Made by a program: the position numbers and the translations under genes. From Sphingomonas parva (ex Maeng et al. 2020) (lineage in GTDB: Bacteria; Pseudomonadota; Alphaproteobacteria; Sphingomonadales; Sphingomonadaceae): a stretch of 64,000 nucleotides of DNA. The stretch lies in contig NZ_SPDV01000002.1 in NCBI RefSeq assembly GCF_004564275.1, forward strand, positions 124,001 to 188,000, in the 5' to 3' direction. The notes beneath the pieces are model-generated. The model did not search any database. It worked only from the letters and a program-made list of their open reading frames with translations, and was not told the origin of the DNA. Within the stretch, counting starts at the first letter, position 1; each line of letters begins with the position of its first letter. Positions 47,867 through 57,413 of this stretch are shown here, piece after piece.

Positions 47867-49486
47867 TCAGCAGCAGTTGAGATCGCGCCAGAGCGCCTGC
47901 TCCCGGAAGGATCCGAGAAGGGCCTGATGGCTGGGCCGTCCCCCGCCACGCGCGAGCTCGAGCAGCGAAGGTATGCTGGCCGAGAGCGGATCCCGTCCGC
48001 TGACCGGCATCGCCTCGAGCAGCCGGGCGGCCTGCTCCGGCTGATCGTTCAGCATCAGCATCAAGGCCGCGGTGACGCGGATCTGCGTCGCCTGAGGTGC
48101 GAGCTCCACCGCGCCAAGAAGGATGTTCTCGGTGCTCGCGGAGATGAAGCTCGGCTCGGTCGCTAGGCTCTCGGCATAGCGATACATCGCCGGATAATAG
48201 GCCGGATCGAGGGTGTAGGCGCGGGCGAACCAGCGCCTCGCCTCACGATAATGGGCCGGCCTTGAAGCTGGATCGTCACGTCCGGCGGTCAGGTGCCGCA
48301 TCCCCTTGAGATATACGAGTTCCGGGTCGGCCGGGCTTGCGGCGATCAGCGCGTCCAGCGCCTTGTCGTCGGCATCAGGGGCACCTGCATCTATCGCCGC
48401 GTGGAGAAGGACGCGCTGCGAGAAGCCGTCGCGCCGCTCTGCCGCGACCGAACGCGCACGGCTGAGCATGCCGTCCAGCCGGTCGCGCTGCGGCACTCCG
48501 ATGCGCAACGCGGCCTGGTCCAGCAGCAACTGATCGGCCGACGGCGGAAGGGTGGCGACGAGAGCATCGGCAGAAGGCGCGGCTGGCGTCTCCGCGCGCA
48601 CGTAAGTCGCGCGGGTCATGTGTCGCTTCAAGGCCGCCCGAAGGCCGTCCATGTCCATGTCGAAGGCGGCGGTAAACGCCTCTACCGGCCTGGCCCCGCC
48701 ACGGGCCGCCTCCAGAAAGCGCATGAAGGCGGCGACTCTTTCGTCGCGTGCGAAGATGTAGTGGACGAGGAGCAGGCTCTGTGCGGAGTACATCCAGCCG
48801 TGGTTGAGGCGGCCCGAGATGATCCTCTCCATTGGCTCCCATGGTTCGGAGACGAGGGCGCGGGCGAGCGACTCATGCGCGCGTCCGTATTCGACGCGTC
48901 CCCCGGAGAACTTGGTCGCCGACATGTAGAATGCGAAGCCGTCGACATACCAGGCGGGAAGGTAGTTTCCCCGGCTGTGCTGCAGCAGGAAGTGGCGCGC
49001 ATATTCCGTGAAGAGGCTGACGCGGCTGTCGTCTCGGGTGCGCACGCTTTCGTCGAGGAGTACGTCGACGGCGAGAAGGACGCCGGACGGTGCCGCCGAA
49101 TAATAGCCGGTCGGATAAAATCGCGGCGGGTAATATTGGCGCCGGAGCCGGTTCAGCGAGGGCCTTCCGCGCACCAGATAGACCGGCAGGCGCTCGAGGA
49201 CGCCGGGCTCATTGTTCGGCACACGGGTCAGTGTCCGCAGAAGCGAATCGAACCTCTCGAGCTCGGTCGCGCGTACCACGAGTGCCTTCTCCGTATCGAT
49301 GCCGTAGAGCACGAAGTGCGCGGTCTCGACCTTCAGCCAGCGTGAACGCTTGGCGACGCGGTCCGCCGTGACGACGATGTCATCGTCGGTCGGCGCAGGG
49401 CGCGGCGCAGCCTGGGCGCTCCATGATCCGAAGGCGGCGAGCAGCATCGGGAAGAGCAGCGCATTTCTCGACACCGCGCGCCTCAC
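47867..49486 (-). CDS. Secreted peptidase-MA-like/TPR-like protein of the CHAT-TPS operon
   Basis: 539 residues from GTG 49486, which overlaps the transporter stop (GTGA). Signal peptide VRRAVSRNALLFPMLLAAFG, cleavage near AQAA. Residues about 45-290 resemble the DUF1570/peptidase-MA fold: LKVETAHFVLYGI, EYARHFLLQHSRGNYLPAWYV then DGFAFYMS. The usual HExxH is replaced by HFLLQH, so activity may be lost. The C-terminal half is helical with TPR-like spacing (ALDALIAASPADPELVYLKG, ARRWFARAYTLDPAYYPAMY). It ends in NCC. Role inferred only from the operon: handling the exoprotein in the periplasm or at the surface. Confidence 0.75.
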   Translation of the reverse strand: MRRAVSRNALLFPMLLAAFGSWSAQAAPRPAPTDDDIVVTADRVAKRSRWLKVETAHFVLYGIDTEKALVVRATELERFDSLLRTLTRVPNNEPGVLERLPVYLVRGRPSLNRLRRQYYPPRFYPTGYYSAAPSGVLLAVDVLLDESVRTRDDSRVSLFTEYARHFLLQHSRGNYLPAWYVDGFAFYMSATKFSGGRVEYGRAHESLARALVSEPWEPMERIISGRLNHGWMYSAQSLLLVHYIFARDERVAAFMRFLEAARGGARPVEAFTAAFDMDMDGLRAALKRHMTRATYVRAETPAAPSADALVATLPPSADQLLLDQAALRIGVPQRDRLDGMLSRARSVAAERRDGFSQRVLLHAAIDAGAPDADDKALDALIAASPADPELVYLKGMRHLTAGRDDPASRPAHYREARRWFARAYTLDPAYYPAMYRYAESLATEPSFISASTENILLGAVELAPQATQIRVTAALMLMLNDQPEQAARLLEAMPVSGRDPLSASIPSLLELARGGGRPSHQALLGSFREQALWRDLNCC

Positions 49487-51384
49487 GGCCGGGGCCTTCG
49501 TCTGAACAGCCGGAGCGGATCGACGGTCGCCCGAAAATGCCAGCCGCGATCCTGCATGTCCCGCGAGCCGGAGCGCGGGACCTGATGGAGCGCCTCGCCT
49601 TTTGCCACCCAGAGCCTGAGCGCGTCGGAGGGCGTCCAGGCGAGGCTCGCGCCCAGGCCGGCGATGAAGTGGCGCGCGGGCTGGGGCGGAGCGTTCGTGC
49701 CGGCGAGGGCCGCATCGGCGAAGGCCGAGATGCTGAAGCCGCCCCAGTCGAAGGCCTGGCGCCGGTTCGCGCGGCCGCTGATGCTGAAGCTCCAGGCGAG
49801 CTCGGCGGAGCCGATCGCGCCCTTGTCGACGAGGAAGATGTTCTCTCGATAGCCCCGCACCGTGCCTTGGCCGCCGATCGACAGGCGTTCCCCCGAATAA
49901 AGGATGCTGCTTGCCGTCTGCCCAGCCACGCGCGCACGCAGCTCGAGCCCGGGCGGACCGAGGCGGCGGGCATAATTGGCCTGGACCAGCCCGACCAGGA
50001 AGTGGCGGTCGGGATTGAGGATGCCGGGAATGTCGGACCGCGTGCCGCCCAACCCCATGCTTCCGGTCGCAGAGAGCGCCAGGACCTGGTTCACGCCACG
50101 CACCACATAGTCGGCGGTCAGGCGAACCGCTCCATATTCGCTGCGGCCGTTCCTCGATCCGGGTGCGAACGAGAACGGCTCCCCGAACAGGAAGCTGCGC
50201 TGATGGCGAAACGCGAACAGGATCCCCACCGACAGGGTGCGAGACGGTGACCATCGCCCCGGCCCACTCGGCATCAGCGGAGTCTCGATCAGACGGCGGC
50301 TGAAGCCGCCTTCCACCGCCCGGTCCTCCGCGCGGATATCCAGCGGGAGAAGCGGCCGGTCGATTACCGCGGCATCGTTGAAGCTGCCTCGCAACGTCAC
50401 CATCGTCTTGGGCGAGAAGAAGGGTGAGGTGTAGGATAATTGAGCATCCTCCACGCCGCTCGTATAGCCGACTTCTCCCGCCACCAGGTCGCCGTCGGAA
50501 AGCAGGTTGCGCAGGTACCCGCCGGCCGAAAGCCGCTCTCCGCCCACAGCGGGCGATCGATCGTTGGCGAAGGCGAGCGAGAGGCCGCCGCGCCGGGCCG
50601 GGTCGATCAGCACGTGAAGGGTCGCCTCGCCCGGACGCGCGCCCGGCCTCAGGTCGGCGTTGATCGATTCGACCGCCTGGCTTTCGGCGAGCAGGCGGAA
50701 ATCGCGCTCGATCGCGAACGCGCTGAGCGGACGCTGCCGCGCGGCCGGAAAACGGTGACGGATGAAGTCGCCGCCCAGGCCGTTGGGATCGCCGTCCGCG
50801 AATTCGACGACGATCCTTTCTCCCGCCGGCCCCGCGCTCAACTGCCCTTGCACGAGGCGCAATGCGAGCAGCCCTTCGCCGAGGCGGGACTCGTCCGAAA
50901 CGAGCAAGCCGGAATTGACGAACCCGGCCGTGACGAGGGCCCGGTTGATCATCTGGACCAGGGCGACGGCGGACGAGGCGCTCGAATCGGTATCGGGAAG
51001 CCCGTTCAGCGCAAACTGGCGCCGCACCCAATTGGCGTCCAGCGGTTCGCCCGGGCGATGCTCCAGGCGCAGATCGGGGGCGCCGGTCGAGGGCGGGCGC
51101 CATTGGGGCGGCGGCACACCTCCGCCGGTCGCGCTGTCGGCCTCGATCAGGATCGTGCGGAGCCGGCCGCTTCCTTCGCCCGGCCGCGCCGTTTCGCCGA
51201 TGGCGGCGGGGAGGTCCGGGTTCGTCTTCGGCTCGGACCAGGAGGGCAATTGCGGAGGCCGCGCGCCCGGTCCGGTGCGATCGCTCTGGCCGACGGAGCC
51301 GGCGGGGGCCGTCTGCGCCTGCGCGGCGGCCGCAAGACCGAGCAGGAGGCCGAGCCCGCCGATGCGGGCGCTTCTTGCCCTCAC
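49483..51384 (-). CDS. FhaC/ShlB/HecB-type TpsB outer-membrane transporter
   Basis: Two-partner-secretion pore that exports the neighbouring TpsA. 633 residues from GTG 51384 inside the TpsA stop. Signal peptide RIGGLGLLLGLAAAAQA; a POTRA region (about 90-215, with LDANWVRRQFALNGLPD and GLLALRLVQGQL); then a 16-strand barrel. GTVRGYRENIFLVDKGAIG contains the conserved VRGYRE of the L6 loop, and LSYTSPFFSPKTMVTLRGSF is a typical strand pair. C-terminal residues are DPLRLFRRRPRP, so the usual terminal aromatic is set back. The gene is complete. Confidence 0.9.
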   Translation of the reverse strand: MRARSARIGGLGLLLGLAAAAQAQTAPAGSVGQSDRTGPGARPPQLPSWSEPKTNPDLPAAIGETARPGEGSGRLRTILIEADSATGGGVPPPQWRPPSTGAPDLRLEHRPGEPLDANWVRRQFALNGLPDTDSSASSAVALVQMINRALVTAGFVNSGLLVSDESRLGEGLLALRLVQGQLSAGPAGERIVVEFADGDPNGLGGDFIRHRFPAARQRPLSAFAIERDFRLLAESQAVESINADLRPGARPGEATLHVLIDPARRGGLSLAFANDRSPAVGGERLSAGGYLRNLLSDGDLVAGEVGYTSGVEDAQLSYTSPFFSPKTMVTLRGSFNDAAVIDRPLLPLDIRAEDRAVEGGFSRRLIETPLMPSGPGRWSPSRTLSVGILFAFRHQRSFLFGEPFSFAPGSRNGRSEYGAVRLTADYVVRGVNQVLALSATGSMGLGGTRSDIPGILNPDRHFLVGLVQANYARRLGPPGLELRARVAGQTASSILYSGERLSIGGQGTVRGYRENIFLVDKGAIGSAELAWSFSISGRANRRQAFDWGGFSISAFADAALAGTNAPPQPARHFIAGLGASLAWTPSDALRLWVAKGEALHQVPRSGSRDMQDRGWHFRATVDPLRLFRRRPRP

Positions 51385-54300
51385 TGGCACGTCCCCGGAG
51401 GGGCAACCGCGTCCGCGCTTGGCTCTGGCGTGGCCCGAACGCCATAGGGCCCGATCGGCCGTATGCCCAACTGGCTGAGGCGGCTGCCGCTGCGGACGGC
51501 GGTGCACTGGCCCCGCAGGATGCCCGAAGCGTCGATCACCGACAGGTCAGGTGACACGGTGCCGGCGCTGACGTCGTAGATTGCGTTGTCGAACTGCAGG
51601 TCGCCGTCCACCTCGACCCGGTTCAGCCGATCGGCGGAAGCGATGAAATAGTTGCTCGAGATGCGGACATTGGCGCCTCCGCTTTGGCCCAGAGCGAGGA
51701 TGTCGCCGCCGTGCGACACGATGGCGAACGGATTGTCGATGACGATCAGGCCCCCTGTTCCGGGGCCGGAGGAGGTTTCGAGGACCCCGGGCGCACCCGC
51801 GCCGATCAGCCTCAAATACCCGCTGTTCGGCATGTCGATCAGGATGTTGCCCGCCGCGCCCTGCAGCGAATTCGTCGTGATCCTGCCCCCTTCCGCGATG
51901 GTGGCGTTGCCGGCGCTGATCAGGATGTTGCCGGCCGGCCCTCCTTCGTCGCTCAGATTCTCGCTTGAGATCGCCGATCCCTGGCCGCTGAGGAGCAGGC
52001 GTTCGGTTTCGACCGCGATGTTGCCCGCGGGATTGGCGTTGACCGTCGAGGTGGTGAGCGTCGATCGGTCGAGGATTTCGAGGCGCCCCGCGGTCAGCTC
52101 CAGGTTGCCGCTCGGTCCCGTTGCCTCGCCGGTGGCTTCGGAGCCGATCAATGCCCGCTCGGTCATCCGCAAGCTGCCCGCTTCGATCGTGAGGTCGCCG
52201 GCCGAGCCCGGGCCGGACGTGTTGGTGGTGATTTCGGCATTCCGCATGACGAGTGCCCCCGTCACCTTCACCGCCACCGTGCCGGCATCGCCGCTATCGA
52301 CGGCCTCGGAGCTGATGCGGCTGCGGACCATGTCGAGTGCATCGAGCGCCACCGTCACCGCACCGCCATTGCCGGTGCCGAACGCGTCCGAATCGACCCA
52401 TGAATCGACCAGGGTGGCGGTCCCGCCGCGCACCGTCACCGACCCGCCGTCGCCCGCGCCATGGCTGCGCGACGTGATCGTGGCCTGGCTGGCCATGCTC
52501 AACCGGCCGACCGTGACATCGACGTTGCCGCCATCGCCGGCGTCACCCGAGTTGGAGGTGATCGCGCTCAGGGCGCCCATGTTCAGAGTGTCGGCGGCGA
52601 CGGTCACGTCTCCCGCATCGCCGGTCGCGAAGGCGCCGCTGTCGGCCGAGATGCTGCCGAACGCCAGGTCGATGGTCTTGGCCTCGACGGCGACATTGCC
52701 GCCCCTGCCGGCGCCTTCCGCGCCGGCCGACACCCTTCCGCCGTCGATCGCCAGCCTGTCCGCGACCGTCAGGCGGACGTCGCCGCCTCTGCCGTCACCC
52801 TCGGCGGTCGAGGTGATCGCGGTGCCCATTCCCAGCTGCAGCACGGGCGCTTCGATACCGACCCCGCCGGCGTCGCCGGCGCCGAGGCTGCGGGAGCTGA
52901 GCTCGGCGCCGTCCTCCATCGTCATCCGCTCGGCCACTTCGAAGCCGATGAACCCGCCGTCGCCGTCGCCATAGGCCTCCGACTGGATTTGGCTGGCGAC
53001 GATCTCCACCTTCGGCGCGCTGACCACGACACCGCCGGCGCTCCCCCTGCCGAGCGTGTTCGAAGCGATCCTCGAGCCGTTCTGGAGGCGCAGCAGGCCG
53101 GTCAGCTGGAAGGCGATCAGAAAGGCCTCGCCGTCACCGGACGCACTCGCCACGACGGCGCTTCTGTCGAGCACGACGCTGCCCCCGTCGATCAGCACGC
53201 CCCCCGAATCTCCGGAGGCATAAGCGTTGGACGTCAGATAGCTGCCGTCCTGCAGGGTGAGCGTGCCCGGCACGGCGAGATGGACGATGCCGCCGTCGCC
53301 GGTGTCATACGCATCCGAGGTCATGTACGAGCGGACCAGCTCTGCGTCCCCGGCCGCTACGAACACGCCGCCGGCATCGCCTTCGCCAAGCGCATCGGCC
53401 GAGATGAAGCTGTCCAGGAGCCGGAGCTGCGGCGTTTCCACGAACACGCCGCCGCCATCGCCCGACCCGTTCGAATCGGTGGAAATCGACGAGAATTCCT
53501 CGAGGGTGACGCTTCGTGTCCCCGAGAGCTCGACCACACCGGCGTCGCCGCTGCCGAATGGGTTCGAGAGGATGCTGCCGTTCGAGAGCAGGATGTCCTC
53601 GCCCCGCAGCAGGATCTCGCCGGGCGCCCCCGTATCGCTGCTGCGCGAGGCGATTTCCGCGCCGCCGGTCACCGATATCGCCCGGGCGGCGACGTCGATG
53701 TCTCCCGCCGACCGTTCCCCAAGGCCGGTGGTGATCACGTTGGATGCATTGTCGAGCGCGAGGCTGTCGGCGAGGATATCGATGCCGCCGCTGTTCGCGT
53801 CCGGCGAGGAGAAAGCGGAAAGTACGCTTCCCTCGAGCCGCACGGCGCCCCCCGAGACCTGGATCGAGCCGTCGGCGCCGGCCGTCGAGGTCGTCACCAG
53901 GAACGAGCCGTCGAGGTTTACCGCCCCGGCGCCGGGCGAAAGCGTTCCGGGAACGAAGGTGCCTGGCGCGGTTCCGGCGCCGTGGAGCTGGAAACCGGCG
54001 CTGCTGAGCGTGGCGTTGGTGATCCGGATCTCCGACGCGCTCAGCGTCACCGTCGCCGGCTCCGGCAGGAAGGCGGCGTTGGTGCCCGCCATCAGGATCG
54101 CACCCTCGTTGCCGAGGAAGCCGAACCCCTCGGGCGACGCGACCGAGAGGGTGGAGCCTCCCGGCGTGCTGATCGCAAAGGCCGAGCCGTCGGCGAAGCG
54201 GAGCGTGCCCGCCGTGGAGACGTGGGCGGCGGCGGGAACGTTCAGCTGCGCCTCCGGGCCGAAGATGATCCCTGCCGGGTTGAGGAAGAAGAAATCCGCG

Positions 54301-54635
54301 TTCGGGAGGGCGGTGCTGTCGAGCGTGCCGTAAAGGTGCGACGGATCTCCCCCGGTGACGCGGTTGATCACGTTCGCGATGGCGCCAGGCTCCCCGGCGC
54401 TGAACGTCCATTGCGCGACCTCGCCGGTGGCGAGATCGAACTGCCCGAAGCTGTGGAAGAGATTGCCGCCCGACTGGCGGCCCCCGTCGATCGTGTGCAC
54501 GCTCCCCGCGCTCGAGACGCTGGTGCCGAGGGTCCCGTCGGGAACGATGGCGGTCGTCACCGCCGGTGGCGCGGTTTGCGCCGTAGCGCCCCCGGCGACG
54601 CCGAGCAGCAGGAGCGCGAGCCTCCTCAACGCCAT
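51381..54635 (-). CDS. TpsA-type exoprotein (filamentous haemagglutinin N-terminal domain, beta-helix repeats)
   Basis: 1084 residues. Signal peptide MALRRLALLLLGVAGGATAQ; residues about 25-145 are the TPS secretion domain (FHSFGQFDLATGEVAQWTF, NVINRVTGGDPSHLYGTLD, FFFLNPAGIIFGP). From about 250 to 1000 the chain is a series of roughly 25-30-residue rungs with the pattern S-S/T-x-A-x-G-x-GD(G/A)GG-V-x-V, as in ADALGEGDAGGVFVAA, SRSHGAGDGGSVTVRG and SEAYGDGDGGFIGFE. The end (GILRGQCTAVRSGSRLSQLG) recalls the C-terminus of cyanobacterial TPS exoproteins. No RHS or toxin domain is seen. Start overlaps the CHAT stop by 10 bases. Confidence 0.88.
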   Translation of the reverse strand: MALRRLALLLLGVAGGATAQTAPPAVTTAIVPDGTLGTSVSSAGSVHTIDGGRQSGGNLFHSFGQFDLATGEVAQWTFSAGEPGAIANVINRVTGGDPSHLYGTLDSTALPNADFFFLNPAGIIFGPEAQLNVPAAAHVSTAGTLRFADGSAFAISTPGGSTLSVASPEGFGFLGNEGAILMAGTNAAFLPEPATVTLSASEIRITNATLSSAGFQLHGAGTAPGTFVPGTLSPGAGAVNLDGSFLVTTSTAGADGSIQVSGGAVRLEGSVLSAFSSPDANSGGIDILADSLALDNASNVITTGLGERSAGDIDVAARAISVTGGAEIASRSSDTGAPGEILLRGEDILLSNGSILSNPFGSGDAGVVELSGTRSVTLEEFSSISTDSNGSGDGGGVFVETPQLRLLDSFISADALGEGDAGGVFVAAGDAELVRSYMTSDAYDTGDGGIVHLAVPGTLTLQDGSYLTSNAYASGDSGGVLIDGGSVVLDRSAVVASASGDGEAFLIAFQLTGLLRLQNGSRIASNTLGRGSAGGVVVSAPKVEIVASQIQSEAYGDGDGGFIGFEVAERMTMEDGAELSSRSLGAGDAGGVGIEAPVLQLGMGTAITSTAEGDGRGGDVRLTVADRLAIDGGRVSAGAEGAGRGGNVAVEAKTIDLAFGSISADSGAFATGDAGDVTVAADTLNMGALSAITSNSGDAGDGGNVDVTVGRLSMASQATITSRSHGAGDGGSVTVRGGTATLVDSWVDSDAFGTGNGGAVTVALDALDMVRSRISSEAVDSGDAGTVAVKVTGALVMRNAEITTNTSGPGSAGDLTIEAGSLRMTERALIGSEATGEATGPSGNLELTAGRLEILDRSTLTTSTVNANPAGNIAVETERLLLSGQGSAISSENLSDEGGPAGNILISAGNATIAEGGRITTNSLQGAAGNILIDMPNSGYLRLIGAGAPGVLETSSGPGTGGLIVIDNPFAIVSHGGDILALGQSGGANVRISSNYFIASADRLNRVEVDGDLQFDNAIYDVSAGTVSPDLSVIDASGILRGQCTAVRSGSRLSQLGIRPIGPYGVRATPEPSADAVAPPGTCQ

Positions 54636-57085
54636 GCGCCCAGCAGCGTGAACGCCGCCCAGATGTGCGGCCGCGCGTCCGCACCGCCGCTGCGGATCAT
54701 GGCGAGCTGCGCGTCGCGCAGGGCGGCGGAGCGGGAGGCGCCGCCGCCATAAGCGGAATAGAAGCTGCGCATCAGCTTCCCGGTGCCGGCATCGTCCACT
54801 TGCCAGAGGGAGGCGATCGCGCTGGTCGCGCCGGCCTGCACCGCCGCGCCGGCCAGGCCCATGCTGGTCTCGTCGTCGCCGACGGCGGTCTCGCAGGCGC
54901 TGAGCACGAGCAGGTCCAGCGACTCGCCGCGGTTGCGGTTCGCCGCGATGATGTCGCGCAATTCGGTGAGCCGGATCACCTCTCCGTCGGCGACGATGAA
55001 GGCCCGGTCGGAGCGGCCGTTGAACGAGGCGTGGGTGGCGAGGTGAAGCACGTCCACGTCGCCGGCGCCCATTTCGCGGACCAGATCGGCACGGTGGAAG
55101 TTCGCGATGTGGCGGCCTGGAGCGCCGCTGGCGGCGGCGATCTCCGCTTCGACGGCGGTGCTCTTGAGCGCCGGGAAAGAGCCGGCGGGGAGGCGCACCC
55201 GGCGCTGGAGCGAAGCGGCGACGACATGCGCGGGGTCCTCGCCGCGGGCGGTGCCGGCCTGCAGATAGGCGAGCGCCGGCGCCACGACGACACGGGTGCG
55301 CTCGATCAGGAACCGGCCCTGCCCATCGAGCAGGGCGGCGAAGGGCAGCGCCCGAAGCGGGCCATCGGGGATGATCGCCAGCATCGCGCCGGGCTTCAGC
55401 CGGCCCTCGATCGGCGCGATCAGCAGCTGGTAGAGCCGCTGCGCCGGGACGCGCCACGCCTCGTCGTCGCCGTAGGTGGTGGAAAGCACCGTTGCCTGGA
55501 CAAGACGCGCGATCTCGTCGCGATTGGCGCTTCGATCGGGCGGCAGCCGGTGGAAGGCGCGCTGTCCGCCCTCGTCCCCGGAAAGATAGAGGAGCTCGAT
55601 CCGATCGGGCAGGAGCAGGGGGTAGAGCACGACCTCGCCGGCGGCGAGATCCTGCGGCTTCAACGCGTCGCGCGGGGGCAGGCACTCGCTGCCCACCGCG
55701 TTCTGCAACTCCGCCTGGCGCGAGGCTTCGATGATGATCTGCGCGGCGCTCACCCGCGCCTCGCCGCCATCGCCTTGTGCGGCGGCGAGCGCGACGTCCG
55801 CGGCCTGCTCGAAGACGTCGCGCATGTAGAGGGCGAAGGTCGATTCCTCGGTGATCGGATCGAGGCGCGGCAGCGAAGGGCGCAGGTTCTCGAGCGCCGC
55901 ATAGGCGGCGGCGCTGTGGCGCTCACGGTGGGCGGGGTCGGCGGCCGCCAGCAGCAGGTAGAGGCCGGGAAGGCGCGTGGGTATTGCGCGGCGACTCTCG
56001 AGGAGCAGGGCCTGCTCCGCCAGGGCGACCGCGCGTGCCGGCTCGCCGCCGGTGAGCGCCAGCTTCGCCTCGATCTCCGCCGCCAGCGCCAGGACGCCTG
56101 GATCCGTATTGCCATTGGATCGCATGGCAGCGAGTCCATCGGCGAGGGCAGGACCGTCCGTTGCCCCGAGCTCGATCGCCGTGTCGAGCAGGCGTCCGAC
56201 GACTTCCCCGCGCAGGCCGGGCGCCGCGATGGCCGCCGCCGCAGGCACCGCCCCCAGCGCCGCAGCCGCGCCCTCGCGACGCATCGTCTCGCGATCTTCG
56301 GCGGGGCTTCGGCTCAGCGCCATCCAGTAGCGCGCGAGCCGGAGGCCGGCCAGCCCGGCAAGCTCCGCGTCGCCGTTGCGCAGCGCGCGCGCGCTGGCGC
56401 ATTGCAGCGCGATGACGGTCAGATAGGCGTTGGTCGTCCGCGCCAGATTGCGGTCGGACAGGTCACCGCAGCTGTCGATCTCGGTCCGCGCGGCGGCCGC
56501 GAGATAGGTCGTGGTCAACCCGGCGTCGGCCGCCGGCGCCGGAGTCTCGTCGCTGCTGCCGCGGGTCGTGCCGGCGCTCGGGGCGGAGACCGCGACCAGC
56601 GCCAGGCGATAGGCCGAGAGAGCCGAGACTCGGGGTTCGTCCGTAGCGCTGCGAAAGGCGGTGGTGAGGAAGCTGTGGGCCTGCGCCTGGCTGCCCAAGG
56701 GGGAGCGTCGCATCACCTCGCCGGCCGCCGAGCAATAGACCGCGAGGGCGCGTGCGCCGGGGCGGCCCGGGCCGGCGGCTTCGATCTCGAGCACGCGCAG
56801 CGCCTGATCGAGGGCGCCGGCGTCCCCAGTCGCGAGAAGGGTCTCGGCTTGCGCCGCAGCCGCGATCAAAGCGTCGTCGCTTGGGAAAGCGGTCGGCGTC
56901 GGAGCACTGCCGCACAGATCGTCGGCGGTGGCTGCCGCGGCCGGCGCCGCGGCCAGCGCCGCAGCCAGCATCGCGAGACGCCGGCAGAATCGCGCGATCC
57001 GCGCCGCACGGCTGCCGCGCGGACGGAACGCCGAGCCAGCCGGCTGAGGGACGTAACCCTCTGATCCCGCTCGGCTGTCCTGCAT
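54626..57085 (-). CDS. Secreted CHAT-domain peptidase-like protein
   Basis: 819 residues. A long basic N-terminus precedes a signal-type helix (RRLAMLAAALAAAPAAAATA). Residues about 60-480 are helical, Ala-rich, in TPR-like pairs. The C-terminal CHAT domain (about 500-819) has the caspase-like dyad: His685 in VDVLHLATHASF and Cys731 in LLVLSACETAVGDDE, plus SMGLAGAAVQAGATSAIASL and the closing WAAFTLLG. Both catalytic residues are present. First gene of the operon; its stop overlaps the TpsA start. ATG 57085 is chosen with GGGGGAGG 11 bases upstream; a GTG at 57106 is possible. Target unknown; the co-encoded exoprotein is the obvious candidate. Confidence 0.88.
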   Translation of the reverse strand: MQDSRAGSEGYVPQPAGSAFRPRGSRAARIARFCRRLAMLAAALAAAPAAAATADDLCGSAPTPTAFPSDDALIAAAAQAETLLATGDAGALDQALRVLEIEAAGPGRPGARALAVYCSAAGEVMRRSPLGSQAQAHSFLTTAFRSATDEPRVSALSAYRLALVAVSAPSAGTTRGSSDETPAPAADAGLTTTYLAAAARTEIDSCGDLSDRNLARTTNAYLTVIALQCASARALRNGDAELAGLAGLRLARYWMALSRSPAEDRETMRREGAAAALGAVPAAAAIAAPGLRGEVVGRLLDTAIELGATDGPALADGLAAMRSNGNTDPGVLALAAEIEAKLALTGGEPARAVALAEQALLLESRRAIPTRLPGLYLLLAAADPAHRERHSAAAYAALENLRPSLPRLDPITEESTFALYMRDVFEQAADVALAAAQGDGGEARVSAAQIIIEASRQAELQNAVGSECLPPRDALKPQDLAAGEVVLYPLLLPDRIELLYLSGDEGGQRAFHRLPPDRSANRDEIARLVQATVLSTTYGDDEAWRVPAQRLYQLLIAPIEGRLKPGAMLAIIPDGPLRALPFAALLDGQGRFLIERTRVVVAPALAYLQAGTARGEDPAHVVAASLQRRVRLPAGSFPALKSTAVEAEIAAASGAPGRHIANFHRADLVREMGAGDVDVLHLATHASFNGRSDRAFIVADGEVIRLTELRDIIAANRNRGESLDLLVLSACETAVGDDETSMGLAGAAVQAGATSAIASLWQVDDAGTGKLMRSFYSAYGGGASRSAALRDAQLAMIRSGGADARPHIWAAFTLLGAWR

Positions 57086-57218
57086 CCGGATATTCGCCTC
57101 CCCCACGAAGCAGCCTCATCGTGCCTGAGGCCGAGGCCCTCCGCAACCGCTCACTCCGTGCCGGCCGCCGATCCGCTTGCCCTCCCGTTTCGCCGCCGCG
57201 GATGCTAGGCGCTCTTGG

Positions 57219-57413
57219 ATGCGCACCGTCTCCGCCAACGCCAGCGTTCGCCTCTATCATCTCGACGAAGGCGATCCGGTCGCCCAGACATTGTTCTACG
57301 GCTCGCTCGACGAGGCGCTCGCGGTGGCGCGTCAGCAGCCTGCGGACGTCCAGGCGGGACTGTGGCTCGCCACCGACAATGACGTGGTCGCCTTTCTCGA
57401 TCTGGAAGCGTGA
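57219..57413 (+). CDS. Small hypothetical protein (64 residues)
   Basis: From ATG 57219: MRTVSANASVRLYHLDEGDP, then TLFYGSLDEALAVARQQPAD and LWLATDNDVVAFLDLEA. Looks like a compact alpha/beta fold; no family known to me. It is divergent from the CHAT operon (133 bases) and converges with the MFS gene. A start at 57177 would add 14 residues of poorer coding character. Confidence 0.6.
   Translation: MRTVSANASVRLYHLDEGDPVAQTLFYGSLDEALAVARQQPADVQAGLWLATDNDVVAFLDLEA

Follow-up and report, generated by a model that had tools for sequence, protein, structure and literature searches.

We describe an operon of Sphingomonas parva, located in a window of 64,000 nucleotides (contig NZ_SPDV01000002.1, positions 124,001 to 188,000), in which a two-partner secretion (TPS, type Vb) system, consisting of a TpsA exoprotein and its TpsB transporter, is encoded together with a CHAT protease. 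Comparison of gene neighbourhoods supports the CHAT-TpsA-TpsB trio as a linked unit, and we see about an even chance that TpsA and TpsB are joined here by a dedicated third partner, an exported TPR-CHAT protease that would cut TpsA at or near its C-terminal tail, with the fourth gene of the operon being dispensable. Gene linkage, natural fusions, an intact catalytic pair, a TPR-CHAT fold and a two-cysteine TpsA tail, as read from alignments and a structural model, form the basis of this proposal; all steps beyond gene linkage, including that CHAT matures or sheds TpsA, we infer. The reading frames bear out the four-gene coupled operon of the preliminary description of this DNA: on the minus strand, on which all operon features given below lie, CHAT (819 aa, 54626..57085), TpsA (1084 aa, 51381..54635), TpsB (633 aa, 49483..51384) and a fourth protein (539 aa, 47867..49486) follow each other from 57085 to 47867, with consecutive genes overlapping by 10 (54626..54635), 4 (51381..51384) and 4 (49483..49486) bases.

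Among 149 genomes of the same family, close matches to CHAT, TpsA and TpsB were found only in the window genome, in G001 (two copies) and in G095, in constant order. For a wider scan, we used the CHAT alignment alone on one genome per species and evaluated the best 80 of 209 loci. These comprise 45 alpha-type loci (L088-L132), titled as alphaproteobacteria, or by phylum only in the case of L088 and L113, and including the two copies of G001 again (L101, L127), as well as 35 loci (L133-L167) from cyanobacteria, gamma- and deltaproteobacteria, Myxococcota and Nitrospira. All 45 alpha-type loci have TpsA on the strand of CHAT, with the two genes adjacent in 43 and TpsB intervening in L110 and L132. 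TpsB is found in 38; in the remaining seven (L091, L096, L102, L107, L113, L129, L131), no more than ~110 bases of fetched DNA are left beyond TpsA. Outside this group, a TPS domain and/or TpsB is present in the fetched DNA of 17 of the 35 loci, not always on the same strand and in varying gene order, which argues against mere inheritance of order. That adjacency reflects nothing but co-regulation or inherited gene order, with no physical or enzymatic link, thus appears scarcely credible, as it is kept despite the shuffled orders and extends to fusions in cyanobacteria and a deltaproteobacterium; some of the conservation is nevertheless plain synteny, as even flanking genes keep their place around Sphingomonas ursincola and Blastomonas, and our Mantel test included no species-tree control. 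The earlier suggestion that CHAT is encoded with the TPS pair as a candidate for a functional link therefore holds.

The fusions are single frames with the succession TPS domain, beta-helix, TPR and CHAT, found in L134 (a cyanobacterium, 1525 aa), in L158 (a deltaproteobacterium, 1496 aa) and, with the same architecture, in L193 and L194 from the cyanobacterial genome of L134. A second class (L189, L191, L192, L195), with a CHAT of a different subfamily, is represented in Calothrix, in Nostoc and in the L134 genome; a further frame, L190, belongs here by its Pfam TPS match, while our custom TPS model gave it no score. These second-class frames span ~1,660-2,950 aa and are without the window-type tail and extra cysteines discussed below. 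That the trio recurs, with protease and surface protein sometimes fused, makes TpsA the probable target of the protease. One could also view CHAT as a toxin, or as an effector of cell death, that TPS delivers or displays, since it forms the most C-terminal domain of the TPS protein in the fusions, and some C-terminal caspase-like domains of polymorphic toxins have been proposed as toxins in a 2012 survey (PMC3482391), whose type V toxin row, in the part drawn on here, gives HINT as the sole processing protease. We regard this as very improbable: in split systems, CHAT stands as a protein of its own that has an export-type N-terminus and does not match TPS; it is conserved, not polymorphic; and among the 22 largest clusters of neighbouring frames of at least 100 aa, no neighbour besides TpsA and TpsB is shared beyond genus-level synteny. 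With regard to a polymorphic toxin of the CdiA type, which combines a variable C-terminal toxin with an adjacent immunity gene, no neighbour of this size was seen to recur across genera, in a comparison that included no immunity models.

The CHAT protein carries a putative N-terminal export signal region (approximately residues 1-52, 56930..57085), judged by inspection and by hydrophobic N-terminal stretches in its relatives, and a catalytic domain (residues 547-816, 54638..55447) that matches PF12770 with an E-value of 2.5e-55. As anticipated in the preliminary description, both residues of the catalytic dyad, His685 (55031..55033) and Cys731 (54893..54895), are present, and each is conserved across our alignments (48/50 alpha rows and 35/39 others, the remainder being gaps). 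An extra cysteine, Cys468 (55682..55684), is conserved almost as widely (47/50 and 35/39, the remainder again gaps) and is invariant in an alignment of 49 sequences. In an AlphaFold2 model (pLDDT 88.2, pTM 0.88), the protein has the TPR-CHAT architecture of Craspase, and its nearest solved structural relatives are Craspase Csx29 and separase, the eukaryotic enzyme that cuts cohesin, in agreement with the PDB titles. Gingipains were matched as well; these, like the sortase PorU, belong to a different secretion system, type IX, and we found no evidence of a sortase in the window. A search of PDB sequences with the CHAT profile yielded no relative besides a designed TPR protein (E 0.0064). With its caspase-like fold and His/Cys dyad, the window CHAT is, on the strength of alignment and model, a TPR-CHAT cysteine protease of clan CD and of the separase/Craspase type, with predicted proteolytic activity. 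It contains no transglutaminase-like domain of the LapG type, PF12770 being the sole Pfam family at E 0.001; CHAT is thus not a LapG, yet it may be LapG-like in its working.

The candidate substrate, TpsA, contains an N-terminal TPS secretion domain (residues 30-284, 53784..54548; PF05860, E 9.1e-30; also TIGR01901), as is characteristic of two-partner secretion, and its sole cysteines, Cys1044 and Cys1083, delimit a C-terminal tail (51387..51506) that resembles the two-cysteine hook of HMW1 and CdrA. All 42 closed alpha TpsA frames of more than 700 aa, a number that includes identical genes fetched twice (L081/L101 and L082/L127), contain this pair, and 37 have exactly two cysteines after the start of the TPS domain. 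After deduplication, the cysteines of 40 alpha tails are 32-52 residues apart, with the last one located 1-7 residues from the end, and 95% of these tails have a basic residue four positions after the first cysteine. As a control, we took TpsA proteins of the same family with no CHAT within 20 kb, located by Pfam TPS places because the custom TPS model scored only part of them; in the 14 places hand-chosen from 51, 11 frames were closed at the 3' end, and ten of these had no cysteine in the last 160 residues. The exception, L187, has two tail cysteines spaced by 11 residues. In L089, L099, L138 and L142, TpsA is broken over several frames, reflecting sequencing error or decay, while CHAT there occupies one frame. 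TpsB, the outer-membrane transporter encoded beside tpsA, belongs to the ShlB/FhaC/HecB family by its match to PF03865 (ShlB; E 3.5e-12), with a weak match to Omp85 and a match to CdiB (6wim, E 2.1e-05).

Maturation or shedding of TpsA by CHAT fits in particular because of the two-cysteine tail and the published biology of CdrA and LapG. CdrA of Pseudomonas aeruginosa, a TPS exoprotein whose C-terminal cysteine hook is believed to fasten it to its TpsB, is described in passages of PMC5422565, PMC4694147 and PMC11898600 as being let go when LapG, a periplasmic cysteine protease, cuts its tail; LapG, however, is transglutaminase-like and controlled by cyclic di-GMP, whereas the protease here is an operon-encoded TPR-CHAT for which cleavage is a proposal. 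HMW1 and HxuA likewise have a two-cysteine tail, whose disulfide-closed C-terminus stays in the TpsB pore, although no protease partner is described for them in the sections concerned (PMC5422565); in the window, the disulfide is deduced from the sequence. The FHA adhesin of Bordetella, secreted via FhaC, is freed by a protease, too, but this enzyme, SphB1, is an autotransporter of the subtilisin type whose gene lies outside the fha locus, and genes for maturation proteases are apparently not part of TPS operons, as far as the same source goes (PMC5422565).

By analogy, CHAT and TpsA would both cross the inner membrane, and TpsB would thread TpsA outward until its last ~40 residues, presumably closed by a disulfide between Cys1044 and Cys1083, come to rest on the periplasmic side of TpsB and, as a hook, hold TpsA at the surface. 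CHAT would wait in the periplasm, gated by its TPR part, recognise the TpsA tail and cut at or near it, such that TpsA is released or matured upon a signal; a candidate cut site is the basic residue at position +4 from the first cysteine of the tail, which is Arg1048 in the window. CHAT would thereby take the role of LapG, with the TPR region serving as a gate as in Csx29, in which, according to part of PMC10028731, a TPR activation region relays a signal to the active site. Csx29 acts with Cas7-11 on Csx30 (same source and section), and it shares only 11-13% identity with the window CHAT, which in turn looks exported and sits among TPS genes.

The cysteine pattern of the fusions permits a variant of this mechanism. 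All six window-type fusions retain the first tail cysteine and the extra CHAT cysteine and have lost the last tail cysteine, for which reason it seemed conceivable that CHAT is docked on the TpsA tail via a Cys1044-Cys468 disulfide, forming a redox- and TPR-gated latch; CHAT could then replace the second tail cysteine as the partner of the hook, and subsequently cut. In four of the six (L134, L136, L193, L194; L136 is cut at its 5' end), no non-catalytic cysteine apart from these two is read beyond the signal region; L158 has two further ones in the TPR part and L135 two further ones in a doubtful 5' end. We consider such a latch decidedly improbable, as the tail pair of split genes is independent of the extra cysteine in the neighbouring CHAT, which suits a plain hook within TpsA. 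The predicted covariation between the TpsA tail pair and the extra CHAT cysteine found no support in split genes of the Calothrix sample described below. CHATs with a TPS gene at most 10 kb away have the extra cysteine more often (15 of 19 scored, 20 fetched) than those at a greater distance (5 of 18 scored, 20 fetched; Fisher p 0.003), and two of the latter five resemble the same subfamily; type II CHATs, such as those of L169, L170 and L173, have it in none of seven scored (eight looked at).

CHAT and TPS genes are linked beyond the compact type of the window. With Pfam models, the 149 family genomes gave 144 CHAT places (74 genomes) and 98 TPS places (69 genomes), which are places rather than genes, three of them falling in one frame of G114. 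Of the TPS places, 47 have a CHAT place at most 20 kb away, in each case on the same strand, but only 4 of these 47 are of the window type; at the others, CHAT frames measure ~1,000-1,230 aa (one 1,672), and TpsA frames are mostly larger. At the type II loci L169, L170 and L173, CHAT is followed by a CHASE2/adenylate cyclase gene and TpsB, and then by a larger TpsA, possibly a signalling version of the CHAT-TPS link, while in L168 and L174 TpsB alone separates CHAT from TpsA. The regulated response suggested by the cyclase gene between CHAT and TpsB would also accord with a quality-control protease that clears TpsA jammed in the periplasm, as DegP degrades stalled TpsA of the HMW1 and FHA systems (passages of PMC5422565), and CHAT and TpsA do share one operon. 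This reading, which covers the destruction of the exoprotein envisaged in the preliminary description, is in our view rather unlikely, as Csx29 and separase are selective cutters and not degraders, and a covalent TpsA-CHAT fusion is better suited to a site-specific cut than to general degradation. Calothrix brevissima NIES-22 has 35 TPS places and 78 CHAT places; with the 59 strongest of the latter taken into account, 20 TPS places have a CHAT neighbour at a distance of up to 10 kb. Eleven same-strand TPS places stand in a row there (G149 C1:6976374-7015255), with a CHAT place following after ~7.6 kb; a single protease could serve many exoproteins.

Several observations weigh against a dedicated TpsA protease. 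Neither TPS nor TpsB is seen in 18 of the 35 non-alpha loci, of which L135 and L136 read as 5'-cut fusions; 51 of the 98 family TPS places and 15 of the 35 in Calothrix have no CHAT nearby, and for 99 of the 144 family CHAT places, no TPS lies within 20 kb. The tail pair is present in 20 of 20 Calothrix TpsA proteins examined (from 35 TPS places, 19 picked for their nearness to CHAT), whatever the CHAT, including three beside a CHAT without the extra cysteine and one without a listed CHAT within 20 kb; it thus marks a TpsA lineage and is no proof of CHAT action, and the hook may work without CHAT. Moreover, a second linked CHAT type is accompanied by a giant TpsA with closely spaced cysteines instead, and no POTRA model matched the window TpsB up to E 5, with a weak POTRA_2 match (E 0.1) in its L104 relative. 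Finally, CHAT could act on another envelope protein, such as an anti-sigma factor or a receptor, with TpsA as a sensor or activator through which surface contact triggers CHAT via the TPR; this we regard as unlikely, because among the clusters listed no neighbour of at least 100 aa other than TpsA and TpsB is common across genera.

The fourth gene appears to have no part in this system. Its product combines a collagenase-type metallopeptidase fold with a TPR C-terminal half; for the protein as a whole, Pfam gave nothing but a sub-threshold TPR-S match (E 2.6e-04). The HExxH motif and downstream glutamate, intact in the other 35 of 36 aligned rows, are replaced by TEYAR (160-164) and Asp182 (48941..49009), and a homologue in G428 shows a comparable loss. 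The prediction of a probably inactive peptidase with TPR was accordingly correct, and so, for CHAT, TpsA and TpsB, was that of genes forming one set; the fourth gene has to be taken out of it. Within the fetched flanks, its family was matched in none of the 80 loci (in the 45 alpha loci, the flank after the trio measures at least 3 kb in 35 and less than 1 kb in 10), S. deserti lacks the gene between TpsB and the one that follows, and the sole close homologue found sits away from any CHAT match, for which reasons we rejected a four-gene system. Rare co-occurrence, which the preliminary description had named as an argument against a functional link, thus applies to the fourth gene and not to the trio. 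Of 112 places with relatives of the fourth gene, 10 do have a CHAT place no farther than 20 kb away, the window counted, but in the five loci inspected (L168, L170, L172, L174, L175) they are on the opposite strand and separated from CHAT by other genes, so that we read this nearness as background synteny. From these comparisons, the gene looks like a local addition, co-expressed with the trio and not a conserved part of the system. Both dead-site relatives (L270, 10265-11893; window, 47867-49486) terminate in DLNCC, and a 35% relative is encoded elsewhere in the window genome (L084).

CHAT proteases are best known from CRISPR and cell-death settings; if our proposal is true, they gain a job in surface display, and a TPR-CHAT bound to TpsA genetically, and in some cases covalently, provides for the maturation or release of TpsA in many environmental bacteria. 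The proposal can be addressed by a concrete test, involving one gene, one catalytic cysteine and one candidate substrate. While the component families are known, no TPS system that has a CHAT protease of its own, be it co-encoded or fused, appeared among the matches listed in open-licence full-text literature, nor did DdvA; the preliminary description mentions the joint occurrence of CHAT and TPS genes in cyanobacteria, and the adjacency may therefore be known to annotators.

Around the trio, gene gain and loss is not rare, given that the transporter region between the window CHAT and an aldehyde dehydrogenase has no match in S. deserti (L104). The window genome (G000; 4.49 Mb, 111 contigs) has a second CHAT place (C28:4082-5110) and a second TPS place (C13:100480-100992), which are located on separate contigs. 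Between the transporter gene and the operon lies a small plus-strand frame (57177-57413), divergent from CHAT, that appears to be coding.

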